Under the pieces are notes generated by a model, which saw only the letters and a list, made by a program, of their open reading frames with translations, had not been told where the DNA came from and made no database searches. Source: Deltaproteobacteria bacterium (GTDB lineage: Bacteria > Myxococcota > Myxococcia > Myxococcales > SZAS-1). From it: a stretch of 36,232 nucleotides of DNA. The stretch covers positions 1 through 36,232 of the forward strand of contig JAFEBB010000075.1 of assembly GCA_018266075.1 (NCBI GenBank), given 5' to 3'. Both the position numbers and the translations under genes were made by a program. Below are positions 17,431 through 21,588 of the stretch, one piece after another. Each line of letters starts with the position of its first letter. Within the stretch, counting starts at the first letter, position 1.

Positions 17431-18480
17431 GTGCGCGCGCGCGCCATTGACTGGCTGCGAGGCATCGCAGCGCTGGTGATGGTGCAGACGCACGCCCTGG
17501 TGCTCGTGCAGCCCGCGCTGCGCGAAGGGCCGATGTCCAAGTACATGGGCGTCGTGGATGGGACCGTCGCGCCGGCGTTCTATTTTTGCGCCGGCTTCGC
17601 GCTCGCGTTCACGCTCGTGGGCGCCGCGAAGAAGGGCGCCGTCGCCAAGCGCGCGCGGCGGATCTTCTTTCGCTCCCTTCAAGTCCTGGCGGTGTCCGCG
17701 TGGCTGACGTGGCAGTGGTTTCCGATCTTCCAGGAGCCGAAGTGGCTGCTGCGCATCGACGTGCTCTCGTGCATCGGGCTCTCGCTGCTGGTGCTGCTCT
17801 GCATCTGCGCGCCGCTCGCGAAGTGGCCGCGCGCGTTGGGCTTGGTGATGCTCGCGCTCGCGTCGGCGATCTTCTTGTTCGCGCCGGCCATGAGCCGCAT
17901 GCACGGGCCGCTCGCGCCGTTCATCGGCATCAGCACGGGCTCGGTGTTTCCGCTCGTGCCGTGGGGCGGACATCTGGCGTTTGGCGCTTCCGGAGGCGCG
18001 CTGCTCGCGTGCGGCTTCAAGCCGATTCGCGTATGGGGCGCGCTCGGCATCTGGGCGCTGGTGTCGATGTTCGTGACGGACCATTTTCGCGCGGCGTTCG
18101 GCGAGCACGATCCCTGGAGCGAGCCCGCGGGCCAGTGGCAGCGCGTGTGCGTGGTGATGGCGGTGACGTTCTTGCTCACGCTGCTCGAGCTGCGCATCGG
18201 CGACAGCAAGCCGGGCGTGCCGCGGCGCGTGCTCGAGTGGTACGGCACCACATCGTTGTGGCTCTACGCACTGCACGAAGTGTGGCTGTACATGCCGAAG
18301 TTCGGCTTCTGCTTCAACGACCACTGGGGCAACAAGCTCACCTGGCCGCAGTACGTGGGCGCGACGCTCTTGCTCATCCTCGCTGCGACGGCGACCGTGG
18401 GACTGGTGGAGGTGTGGGCTTGGATCTGGGAGCGCGCGAAGGCGCGCGGACTACAGATCGTACGCGGCCAGAAGGCCTAG
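17431..18480 (+). CDS. multi-spanning acyltransferase-like membrane protein (HGSNAT/DUF1624 type)
   Basis: A 349-aa inner-membrane protein with about eight to ten hydrophobic segments. The N-terminus ARAIDWLRGIAALVMVQTH is the signature of the DUF1624/OpgC-like acyltransferase group, where the Asp-Trp-Leu-Arg-Gly stretch and nearby His line the active site. Such proteins transfer acetyl or other acyl groups from the cytoplasm to sugars or lipids across the membrane. Later landmarks are FYFCAGFALAFTLVG and a Trp/Tyr-rich stretch TTSLWLYALHEVWLYMPKFG. Start is GTG 17431. Its last 30 bases overlap the 3' end of the convergent gene at 18451. The substrate cannot be named; the DUF962 neighbour hints at lipid modification, as inference. 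Confidence 0.82.
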   Translation: MRARAIDWLRGIAALVMVQTHALVLVQPALREGPMSKYMGVVDGTVAPAFYFCAGFALAFTLVGAAKKGAVAKRARRIFFRSLQVLAVSAWLTWQWFPIFQEPKWLLRIDVLSCIGLSLLVLLCICAPLAKWPRALGLVMLALASAIFLFAPAMSRMHGPLAPFIGISTGSVFPLVPWGGHLAFGASGGALLACGFKPIRVWGALGIWALVSMFVTDHFRAAFGEHDPWSEPAGQWQRVCVVMAVTFLLTLLELRIGDSKPGVPRRVLEWYGTTSLWLYALHEVWLYMPKFGFCFNDHWGNKLTWPQYVGATLLLILAATATVGLVEVWAWIWERAKARGLQIVRGQKA

Positions 18481-19305
18481 CCCAATTCGCGCGTCATTGC
18501 CGACGCCCTTCGCGAAATCATCGGTCGCCGAGAGCCGTATCGCGACGGGCTCGTCGTTCACGGCGAAGAGCACGCGCTCGATGGCACCTTCGCCACGCCC
18601 TCGCAGCCCAGGCGTGCCGCGCGGCAACGAGAGCGACCAGCCCGCATCCACGCGCAGCTCTGCGCGCCACAAGCCGTCGAGGCTCTCGCGGCGGAGCAGC
18701 AGCGTGCCGCCGGTCAGCGGTTGCACAAGGAACGTGGGCGTCTGACCCGCGAGCCGCTCGATGCCAAACGCGAGCGACGGCCCGAGCGCCGCGCGCGACG
18801 CGCCCGTGGGATCGCGCGCGACATCCAGCAGGACCCCCGCGCGACCGACCTCGAGCTCCTGATCTCCGTGCGCATCCCGCTCCAGCGTGCCGAGCCGCGT
18901 GGTCACCGCGATGTCGAACGGAAACGGCAAGCGCGTGGGATGCGGCGTGGGCAAGAGGATGAAGCCCTCGTCCAGGTGGCGCAGGTACAGCCCGTCGAAC
19001 GCCATCACCCTGCCCTGCCACCGCGTGTCCGGTTGCCGCAGCAGCTCGGCCTCGAGGAAGTCGTACTCGGTGGACCACGCGGTGTGCTCATGCGTGCGGC
19101 TCTCGCGGCTCTTGCGAAGGCGCAGGCCTCCTTCGAGCAACAGCGCGCCCGAGCTCGCGCCGGACTCGTCGACGCCCGCAAGCTCCGCGCCGAGCGCGAG
19201 CCGATTGCCGGGATCGAAGCAGGCCACGATCGGCCCGCTCGCCGACATGACGTCGCACGGGTCACCCGCGGCCAGGGCCGCGCTGAGCAGGAGCGCGGCG
19301 AGCAT
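18451..19305 (-). CDS. exported hypothetical protein, probable outer-membrane (284 aa)
   Basis: The signal peptide is short (MLAALLLSAALAAG). The mature part is rich in alternating beta-strand patterns (TGGTLLLRRESLDGLWRAEL, VDAGWSLSLPRG), fitting an outer-membrane beta barrel. Its C-terminus (FAVNDEPVAIRLSATDD, ARIGLGLLAAYDL) resembles that of the upstream 407-aa protein (LAVNDQPVSAVLEGRAGWRDD), so the two are probably distant paralogues. It ends in a hydrophobic-aromatic-acid-Leu tail rather than the usual terminal Phe. It begins 3 bp after the upstream stop, so both are translated from one message. Its last 30 bases overlap the convergent acyltransferase gene. Confidence 0.75.
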   Translation of the reverse strand: MLAALLLSAALAAGDPCDVMSASGPIVACFDPGNRLALGAELAGVDESGASSGALLLEGGLRLRKSRESRTHEHTAWSTEYDFLEAELLRQPDTRWQGRVMAFDGLYLRHLDEGFILLPTPHPTRLPFPFDIAVTTRLGTLERDAHGDQELEVGRAGVLLDVARDPTGASRAALGPSLAFGIERLAGQTPTFLVQPLTGGTLLLRRESLDGLWRAELRVDAGWSLSLPRGTPGLRGRGEGAIERVLFAVNDEPVAIRLSATDDFAKGVGNDARIGLGLLAAYDL

Positions 19306-19308
19306 GGG

Positions 19309-20532
19309 TCAGCGCGCCTCGCGGACGAGCGTGGCATTGCGACGCGCAGGCGCCCAGAAGCTGAAGCGCAACCCCGCGTAGCCGCCCCAATCCCAGCCCG
19401 CAGGTTGCGAGACGAGATCGTCGCGCCAGCCCGCGCGGCCCTCGAGCACCGCCGAGACGGGCTGGTCGTTCACCGCGAGCAGGATGACCTCGTAGCCCGC
19501 TTCGGTCTGCAGCCGCGACACGGGCGGGCTGTTGTTCAAGCCCCAGATGCGCGCCAGGTTCGCTTCCACGAAGAGGCGATGGAAGCCGTCGCGGTCGAGG
19601 ATGTCCTCGGCGTCGAGGCCGCCCTCGAGGCCGAAGAGGTACTGCTGGCCGATGGAGTCGTGCTCGAGCGCGGGCCCAAAGCGAATTCGCAGGTACGACT
19701 CGAGATCCTTTGACCTCAAAATATCCAGCGTCGGCTCCGCGGCGAGCACCGTCACCCAGGTCTGCGGCGTGCCCTTGGAGAACGACTCCACGTGCCCCGC
19801 TTCCACGAACGCGCCGACGTTGAGCGTCACGTCATAGCGTCGTGGCTTGCCGAAGAACGTGGTGAAGCGCAGCGGCGCCGCCGGGTACACGTGCGAGATG
19901 TCCCACGTCAGCGCGGTGGCGCCGAAGTAGCCCTGCCCAGGATCGAGCCGACCCTCGAGCAGGTGCAGGCGATTCATGTTCTGCAAATCGTCGTCGGGAA
20001 AATCGATGCGGCCACCGAACTCGGCCTCGCCGCTCGACTCGAAGCCCTGCCCCGGAAACCACGCCGGCGACCAGCCGCCGCCAATCCAGATGCGCCGGTG
20101 CATGTCGAAGTTGAACTGCATCACGCGATTCCGCTCGTCGCGCACCCAGCCCGGCGGCGACTCCGCCACCGCCTGCGCCAGCTTGAAGCCGCGCATCCGC
20201 TCCACCGTCAGCAGCCCCGGCGGACACACCGGGTGCACGCGCGAGAGCTCGCCCTGCGTGGGGTTGCCGCTGGCGTCGAGCTCGCTGTCGTCGGCGACGA
20301 GGCAGGTGCGCGCGCCGTCGTTGCATTGAAAGCGCACGCGTCGAGAGCCCAGGTTCGCGCAGAAGACCGGCTCGTCCCAGTTCAGCGCGGGCAGCGGCCC
20401 CGGCTCGCGCTCCACCGCCATCGACGCAGCGGGCGTCGCGTCCGGAGCGGCCTGGGGCGGCTCGTCGGCGAAGGCGAGCGAGGGTGTGAGACACAGCGAC
20501 ACCGCGGCCAGGCCGCGCCACAACGGGCACAT
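19309..20532 (-). CDS. exported hypothetical protein, probable outer-membrane barrel (407 aa)
   Basis: Residues 1-22 are a signal peptide (GLAAVSLCLTPSLAFA before DEPP). After a Pro/Ala-rich spacer comes a small region with four cysteines (FCANLGSRRVRFQC, ARTC, PVCPPG; residues about 58-105), then a long beta-strand-rich part (IWIGGGWSPAWFPGQGF, GEAEFGGRIDFPDDD, RRYDVTLNVGAFVEAGHVES) ending in GGYAGLRFSFWAP. That fits an outer-membrane protein with a Cys-stabilised plug or cap. No family recognised. The gene heads a two-gene operon. ATG 20532 has a very strong Shine-Dalgarno (GGGAGG), but this is buried in the hairpin at 20536-20563. Confidence 0.78.
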   Translation of the reverse strand: MCPLWRGLAAVSLCLTPSLAFADEPPQAAPDATPAASMAVEREPGPLPALNWDEPVFCANLGSRRVRFQCNDGARTCLVADDSELDASGNPTQGELSRVHPVCPPGLLTVERMRGFKLAQAVAESPPGWVRDERNRVMQFNFDMHRRIWIGGGWSPAWFPGQGFESSGEAEFGGRIDFPDDDLQNMNRLHLLEGRLDPGQGYFGATALTWDISHVYPAAPLRFTTFFGKPRRYDVTLNVGAFVEAGHVESFSKGTPQTWVTVLAAEPTLDILRSKDLESYLRIRFGPALEHDSIGQQYLFGLEGGLDAEDILDRDGFHRLFVEANLARIWGLNNSPPVSRLQTEAGYEVILLAVNDQPVSAVLEGRAGWRDDLVSQPAGWDWGGYAGLRFSFWAPARRNATLVREAR

Positions 20533-20535
20533 TCA

Positions 20536-20563
20536 GGTCCTCCCGGTTTCCCGGGCGAGGACC
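20536..20563 (-). promoter_or_regulatory. Shine-Dalgarno-sequestering hairpin with GAAA tetraloop
   Basis: In the mRNA (minus strand) GGUCCUC pairs with GAGGACC, a 2-nt bulge follows, then CCGG pairs with CCGG around a GAAA (GNRA) loop: 11 base pairs in all. The Shine-Dalgarno GGGAGG lies entirely in the 3' arm, four to five bases before the start at 20532. The structure should hide the ribosome site unless something opens it, so it is a good candidate for translational control (thermosensor, protein or small-RNA target). Confidence 0.6.
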
Positions 20564-20739
20564 ACGGTGCAATCGCGTGCCGAGTGCGTGAAGGCACGCG
20601 GATCCGCGGACTTCGCGACGCAGCGCGGTGAACGTTGGATGTCCGCCGTCGAAAGCCGGGCGCTGCGCAGCGCACGACGCGGGTGCGTCGGCGGCTACGC
20701 ACTCGGGAACGAAACCATCTGGTTAAATATGCAGACTGC
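20564..20739. other. palindrome-rich leader/intergenic region
   Basis: Between the 191-aa gene and the 407-aa gene. It holds CGCGTGCC/GGCACGCG (20574-20581 and 20593-20600; 11-nt loop), the overlapping perfect 12-bp palindrome CGCGGATCCGCG (20597-20608), and the perfect 14-bp palindrome GCGCTGCGCAGCGC (20660-20673). An AT-rich patch (GGTTAAATAT, 20721-20730) lies next to the upstream stop. No gene is seen. It probably contains the promoter and structured 5' leader of the 407-aa gene. Confidence 0.5.
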
Positions 20740-21315
20740 TCAGGCGTCGAAGCCGCCGCTGCCCAGCCGCTCCAGGAAGCCCGGCAGCACGGGGTGCGTC
20801 TCGTGCTCCGTGCCGCACACGTGGCAGTGCACCGGGCCGTGCCACGAGGAGGCAATGCGCAGCGTCTCCTTGCAGCAGAGGAGCGGGAACGGCTTGAGCG
20901 CGTCCTCGCTCTCGGGCGGCTCGGGCACGTAGGGATCCGGCGGCACCGCGAGGAACGTCACGTACGGGTTCTCCGAGAGCGTGAGCTGCGGTTGCAGCAA
21001 CTGGTGGTAGCGCAGCTCGCGCCGCCAGTGGTCCGCGCGCTTCTCCACCGCCGCGCGCTGCTCCACGGTGAGCCAGCCGTCCTCGGGCGCCACCGCGCCG
21101 CAGTATGGACAGTGCCGCTCCGGCGGGATGCAGCCGATCTCCACGTCGTTGGCGTGGTTGAGCAGGCGCGCGAGCGCGCGGAACACCGCCGCGGCGTCGC
21201 TCGGGCCCGCGCGGACCTTGAAGGTGCGGTGGCAGGTCGGGCACTCGCGGCGAACCAGGCCGTGGGCGTCGACGCCCAGCACGAACGGCTCGCCCTCGAT
21301 CTCCAGGTTGGGCAT
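20740..21315 (-). CDS. multi-CxxC putative zinc-binding protein (191 aa)
   Basis: No named family, but the residue pattern is telling: CPTC at 25-28, Cys62, CPYC at 69-72, a CC pair near 147 and CHVC near 162. Two or more zinc-ribbon-like knuckles are likely. There is no signal peptide. The middle is helical (TVEQRAAVEKRADHWRRELR) and followed by a Pro-rich loop (VPPDPYVPEPPESED). Start ATG 21315 has GGAGAG in front. Ten bases separate it from the stop of the 55-aa membrane peptide gene, so they are co-transcribed. A role in nucleic-acid or metal handling is possible but unproven. Confidence 0.75.
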   Translation of the reverse strand: MPNLEIEGEPFVLGVDAHGLVRRECPTCHRTFKVRAGPSDAAAVFRALARLLNHANDVEIGCIPPERHCPYCGAVAPEDGWLTVEQRAAVEKRADHWRRELRYHQLLQPQLTLSENPYVTFLAVPPDPYVPEPPESEDALKPFPLLCCKETLRIASSWHGPVHCHVCGTEHETHPVLPGFLERLGSGGFDA

Positions 21316-21325
21316 CGGCTCTCCG

Positions 21326-21493
21326 TCAGCGCGCGGCGACTCGCCGGCGCGCGGCCATCCCTGCCACCAGCGCCACGCCTGCACTCACCAGCGCGAAGAG
21401 CAGGAAGAGGTGCTCCCAATTTCCCAGCGGCGCCCCCGACACCAGGGCCAGCGCCCAGAGCGCGAGCAGCAGCACCGTCGCCATCCACGTCAT
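21326..21493 (-). CDS. 55-aa two-span membrane peptide
   Basis: Two hydrophobic segments (MATVLLLALWALALVSG and LFLLFALVSAGVALVAGM) joined by a short loop with APLGNWEH, then a basic end RRRVAAR that predicts a cytoplasmic C-terminus. The LW-LVSG-LG-H-L pattern resembles the small lmo0937/DUF5670 membrane family, which is of unknown function. GGAGGG sits five bases before ATG 21493; ATG 21517 lacks any ribosome site. It is the first gene of a two-gene unit with the multi-CxxC protein. Confidence 0.7.
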   Translation of the reverse strand: MTWMATVLLLALWALALVSGAPLGNWEHLFLLFALVSAGVALVAGMAARRRVAAR

Positions 21494-21588
21494 CGCGCCC
21501 TCCGCGCCTCCGCTCATGGGTAGGGCGTGCGCGAGCGGGCAACCAGCGCCTCGGCGCCACCCACGCTGTCCACGCGCGTGCCGCGGAT

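Follow-up and report, generated by a model that had tools for sequence, protein, structure and literature searches.

The leader of P0001, a gene for a predicted outer-membrane beta-barrel protein, contains a stable hairpin (20536..20563, minus strand) that encloses the whole of a Shine-Dalgarno (SD)-like sequence, GGGAGG, just upstream of the start codon. This hairpin is real and unlikely by chance, and it is an ordinary kind of element belonging to an already-known type. Provided that its 5' arm is part of the mRNA, it is tentatively read here as a local, static translational brake, the most likely of the explanations weighed below. Positions refer to the window, the whole stretch of 36,232 nucleotides that was analysed.

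On the minus strand, positions 20563-20536 read GGTCCTC[GC]CCGG-GAAA-CCGGGAGGACC. The 5' (anti-SD) arm, GGTCCTC-GC-CCGG (20551..20563), consists of GGTCCTC (20563-20557), a GC bulge (20556-20555, with CG at 20557-20556 as an equivalent alternative) and CCGG (20554-20551). It is followed by a GAAA loop of the GNRA type (20547..20550) and by the 3' arm CCGGGAGGACC (20546-20536), which is paired throughout and includes GGGAGG (20539..20544). The leader of the ORF 20532-19309 thus terminates as GGTCCTCGCCCGGGAAACCGGGAGGACCTGA-ATG, with a TGA (20535-20533) between the stem and the ATG at 20532. An earlier note on this DNA had described an 11-bp stem capped by GAAA; the 11 pairs and the loop are as it stated, and the 2-nt bulge of the 5' arm had been overlooked. 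It had also placed the whole of GGGAGG inside the stem just before ATG 20532, and this is borne out by the predicted fold: all GGGAGG bases are paired, the bulge being confined to the 5' arm. The computed energy of the 28-mer is -19.2 kcal/mol. At 37 C the model gives an SD pairing of 0.98 in both contexts used (-60..+30 and -206..+60); the start codon lies mostly outside the stem, with a pairing of 0.38-0.47 in these two contexts and of 0.35-0.47 over all folds made at that temperature. In the -206..+60 fold nothing competes for the anti-SD arm. When the leader was trimmed in the model, SD pairing was still 0.98 with at least 30 nt of leader and for transcripts starting at 20562 or upstream; it fell to 0.89 when the start was moved to 20560 and to 0.54-0.64 with starts at 20554 or farther downstream.

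P0002 and P0001 are separated by an intergenic leader region (20533..20739, minus strand, 206 nt) with no sigma-70-type promoter or terminator match. Just upstream of the hairpin, on the minus strand, lies a second inverted repeat of 8 pairs, CGCGTGCC...GGCACGCG (20600-20574). The neighbouring minus-strand string CGGCACGCGATTGCA (20583-20569) resembles a sigma-54 -24/-12 promoter and, if active as one, would start transcription inside the hairpin. Its GG-GC gap is 9 nt; the sigma-54 consensus requires a gap of 10 nt.

The start of P0001 (407 aa, 19309..20532, minus strand) is solid, given the adjoining in-frame TGA that directly precedes its ATG, an SD placed 6 nt from that ATG and an N terminus resembling a signal peptide. 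The last of these features agrees with the earlier view that the gene encodes an outer-membrane protein, as do the confident AlphaFold2 model, a predicted barrel with many long strands (mean pLDDT 87.7 from a 27-row alignment), and the top Foldseek PDB matches, which are porins and other outer-membrane barrels (probability ~1) with low TM-scores (0.25-0.46). No Pfam family matched P0001 or P0003 at E 0.1. The designation is well supported by this model where the predicted fold class is concerned, and does not extend to a named family. P0003 (284 aa, 18451..19305, minus strand), a secreted-looking protein, begins 3 nt past the P0001 stop. Together the two genes (18451-20532) form a pair, a P0003 homologue lying beside the P0001 homologue in 57/57 Myxococcaceae loci examined with flanks of ~1 to 2 kb. 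P0002 (20740-21384), a cysteine-rich protein with the CxxC pairs CPTC, CPYC and CHVC and a Pfam match only below threshold, has a homologue beside that of P0001 in 0/57 of these loci. More distant homologues of P0001 are also found in other Myxococcota. One further record, L149, titled Comamonas sp. KCTC 72670, carries a homologue (38% identity) that is Myxococcaceae-like, and the record name looks wrong.

Several tests support the view that the hairpin exceeds chance expectation. The 101-nt region has a folding z of -2.64, and 0/200 shuffles fold as well. With dinucleotide shuffling confined to the leader sequence upstream of the SD, 7/2000 shuffles reached the hairpin energy and 1/2000 reached both the energy and the SD pairing. 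Among 338 SD-bearing starts in 836 kb of genome, all of them heuristic calls, the hairpin ranks 4th by local hairpin energy, and two called starts, ATG 20532 included, equal it on both energy and SD pairing. Because starts are many, one such case per few hundred of them is unremarkable by itself. The contention that most other starts in the window are open holds only in part: the median SD pairing of the 19 called starts is ~0.65, and three of them (25220, 20532 and 23420) exceed 0.95, so that the statement was too strong. At sequence level the hairpin stands alone. Its full pattern, allowing up to 3 mismatches, occurs at one site in the genome, for which reason a repeated element or regulon was rejected. 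The core pattern with 0 mismatches is found only in the hairpin at 20536-20563, and with up to 2 mismatches at 10 genome sites, compared with 2 for the reversed control.

A survey of 2.04 Mb of the genome, comprising 373 rule-called ATG starts that follow an intergenic leader and have an SD-like motif, places the hairpin in a wider class, defined by a hairpin energy of at most -18 and an SD pairing of at least 0.95. Thirteen of the 373 leaders belong to it, compared with 2.4 +/- 1.4 in shuffles (0/40 shuffles reach 13), and at the stricter -20/0.97 there are 9 compared with 1.0. The same 13/373 may be set against 15/1500 for non-coding SD-like motifs (Fisher p 0.0013), a random sample from 2155 such motifs. 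The excess is also seen with 5-mer motifs only (11/254 ATG leaders, 13/1084 non-coding motifs, p 0.002; class-weighted expectation 3.1), and there it is ~3-fold. Simple SD pairing of at least 0.9 is not enriched (53/373 ATG leaders, 221/1500 non-coding controls), and the excess is restricted to very stable hairpins. With GTG starts, also called by rule, included, the excess at -18/0.95 is weaker (15 observed, shuffles with a mean of 6.3 and a maximum of 16), the observed value here having used one extra window length; many of the rule-called GTG starts are perhaps wrong. Hairpins are depleted in windows that straddle the ATG start, with no such depletion in windows ending at -14..-2. A Myxococcaceae genome (G112) showed a similar trend over 400 kb, 3/102 ATG leaders at -18/0.95 compared with 0.5 in shuffles (1/60 shuffles reaches 3), in numbers too small to conclude from.

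The genes behind these hairpins are diverse and include those for an O-antigen ligase, glycosyltransferases, a hemerythrin/ScdA protein, a metallo-beta-lactamase-fold protein and further proteins of no assigned family; no Pfam family is common to the ten class genes compared. Near-perfect SD-masking hairpins elsewhere in the genome precede a hemerythrin/ScdA gene (L080:6920-6959), a lipoprotein-like gene (L172:7370-7409) and the gene of a signal-peptide protein (L079:5814-5851). For two further genes preceded by SD-masking hairpins, the homologues proved too diverged (24-40% identity). Hairpins of great stability that mask the SD are, unexpectedly, several-fold over-represented at ATG starts of the sampled genome, as counted with a simple gene and start caller and with jointly examined thresholds close to the hairpin's own values. 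This excess, dependent as it is on caller and thresholds, raises the prior that the P0001 hairpin does something. A more ambitious proposition, and a rather improbable one, is that the lineage possesses a small class (~3% of sampled ATG starts) of hyperstable SD-masking hairpins which were selected as brakes, are opened by a dedicated factor, for example in development or predation, and have no common sequence, hence being missed by comparative RNA searches.

Comparison with relatives gave a different picture. P0001 is present in 61 of the 145 genomes of the order that were compared, among which the window genome is the sole member of its family. The 60 others all belong to one family (f3), mostly Myxococcus, Corallococcus, Archangium, Pyxidicoccus and related genera, and their homologues are ~39-44% identical. 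Leaders were folded for 57 of these 60 homologues (36-44% identity), with starts picked by rule and three left out; a further 49 loci, many of the same species and the rest more distant, were left aside. The earlier note had looked to orthologues for a preserved stem with compensatory changes. The stem at 20536-20563 occurs in 0/57 homologue leaders, most of which are unrelated and carry GAGGAG or GGAGG, and from these sequences it appears not to be conserved among the examined homologues, all of them distant. SD pairing is at least 0.95 in 8/57 leaders and the hairpin energy at most -18 in 5/57, and a single leader (L034) passes both thresholds, through two small hairpins. Ten homologues have a common region in which CCUCCG can pair with CGGAGG over the SD. 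In this analogous hairpin a U-A pair is unpaired in 4/9 distinct alignment rows, no pair shows two-sided, compensatory change in the nine rows, and the covariation score is the same as after shuffling.

For the brake to operate, the P0001-P0003 transcript would start upstream of ~20562, and its leader would fold into the 11-bp GC-rich hairpin enclosing the whole of GGGAGG. The hairpin would then lower ribosome access to ATG 20532. The outcome would be low translation of the outer-membrane beta-barrel protein, or a dependence on opening of the stem, by a trans-acting RNA or protein or through unfolding during or just after transcription; a stem so stable is expected to silence the gene unless it is opened. 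The inclusion of the 5' arm in the mRNA, the lowered translation and the participation of any regulator are what we infer. The evidence at hand for a brake comprises the sequence, its in silico fold, the position of the SD in the stem, the type of gene and the statistical excess over what chance would give. Counted in its favour are the SD pairing (0.98), the energy (-19.2 kcal/mol), the single matching shuffle in 2000, the excess at ATG starts and the Yersinia ompA precedent discussed below; counted against it are the 0/57 conservation, the subgroup hairpin without two-sided change and the prediction that a transcript starting at 20554 or later would leave the SD only ~0.54-0.64 paired.

The serious rival, ranked second and distinctly less probable than the brake, is that the hairpin is a fortuitous or tolerated inverted repeat of the kind common in GC-rich intergenic DNA, with no selected role or partly outside the mRNA. 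The failure of all 57 homologues to conserve the stem would be expected of such a repeat. It would also fit that eight other starts among the 722 intergenic leaders of the genome have comparable or stronger SD-masking hairpins (at most -20 and at least 0.97), that such hairpins occur at 0.5-1% of non-coding SD-like motifs without a start codon, and that, with no copy elsewhere in the genome, the hairpin defines no regulon by sequence. Two results count against it: only 1/2000 leader shuffles matches both energy and pairing, and such hairpins are ~3-fold more frequent at ATG starts than at non-coding control motifs. A role at the DNA level, as an operator or part of a promoter with the RNA pairing as a by-product, ranks third and is unlikely. 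Its half-sites, GGTCCTC/GAGGACC, make up an inverted repeat of 7 bp, the SD would be freed in the model if the leader began inside this repeat, and the -24/-12-like string described above lies just upstream. Yet, with up to 2 mismatches allowed, the operator-like pattern is not over-represented (46 places compared with 75 for the reversed-pattern control), its 0-mismatch form is found only at the hairpin, the bulge makes the arms asymmetric and the leader region has no sigma-70-type promoter match.

A ligand- or protein-responsive leader, a riboswitch or autoregulatory site with the hairpin as its expression platform, is ranked fourth and appears very unlikely. In its favour are the 206-nt intergenic region and the second 8-bp stem of the fold, at ~20574-20600; against it, no Rfam covariance model matches the window at gathering score, the anti-SD arm is left without an alternative partner and no conserved leader is found among the 57 homologues. 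An RNA thermometer that opens on warming is the least credible reading. Its layout resembles those upstream of ompA genes, as described in PMC8245352, but temperature control is not supported by the predicted melting, on which the reading was rejected: SD pairing in the -60..+30 model is 0.98 at 20-70 C and still 0.96 at 80 C, falling to 0.89 at 90 C. Nor does the predicted fold contain the features that make known thermometers labile, a U-rich anti-SD such as fourU or a bulge or mismatch in the SD pairing. An intrinsic terminator of the upstream gene was also considered and rejected, since there is no T run and 20000-21500 contains 0 terminator-like sites.

If the stem works as drawn, the translational brake would be one more sequence-unique control on an envelope protein, of a kind that escapes conservation-based RNA searches. 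The wider point is testable: at the ATG starts of this GC-rich genome, very stable hairpins over the SD are more frequent than the controls lead one to expect. Such starts may be kept silent, may be opened by some factor, or may simply have transcripts that begin within the stem. The literature listings of an open-access library showed nothing on SD-sequestering hairpins or leaders of myxobacteria.

Hairpins in 5'-UTRs that sequester the SD are control elements of the type described by de Smit and van Duin. The P0001 hairpin resembles them in that the SD lies wholly in a stem just upstream of a mostly free start codon; it differs in being far more stable than control needs, without a known opener and not conserved in the 57 homologues. 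The GCCUCCG..CGGAGGC hairpin of the ten homologues (L026, L032-L035, L095, L096, L101, L103 and L104) precedes the homologous gene and, in part of the set, likewise pairs the SD GGAGG with an upstream CCUCC. In contrast, it has 7 bp, another sequence and another loop, cannot be aligned with the 11-pair stem, and is broken in several members, without two-sided changes. The ompA thermometers of Yersinia pseudotuberculosis and Shigella dysenteriae also cover the SD of an mRNA for an outer-membrane protein with a hairpin, although the proteins are not shown to be related to P0001. These thermometers are labile, owing to four U facing GGAG or to a bulged A within the SD (PMC8245352), whereas in P0001 the arm holding the SD is GC-rich, paired throughout and, in silico, closed up to 80-90 C. 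In Y. pseudotuberculosis ompA a mutation that gave a perfectly paired SD abolished reporter expression (PMC8245352). On this precedent, the P0001 stem should keep its ribosome site closed, unless it is opened or its 5' arm is left untranscribed.
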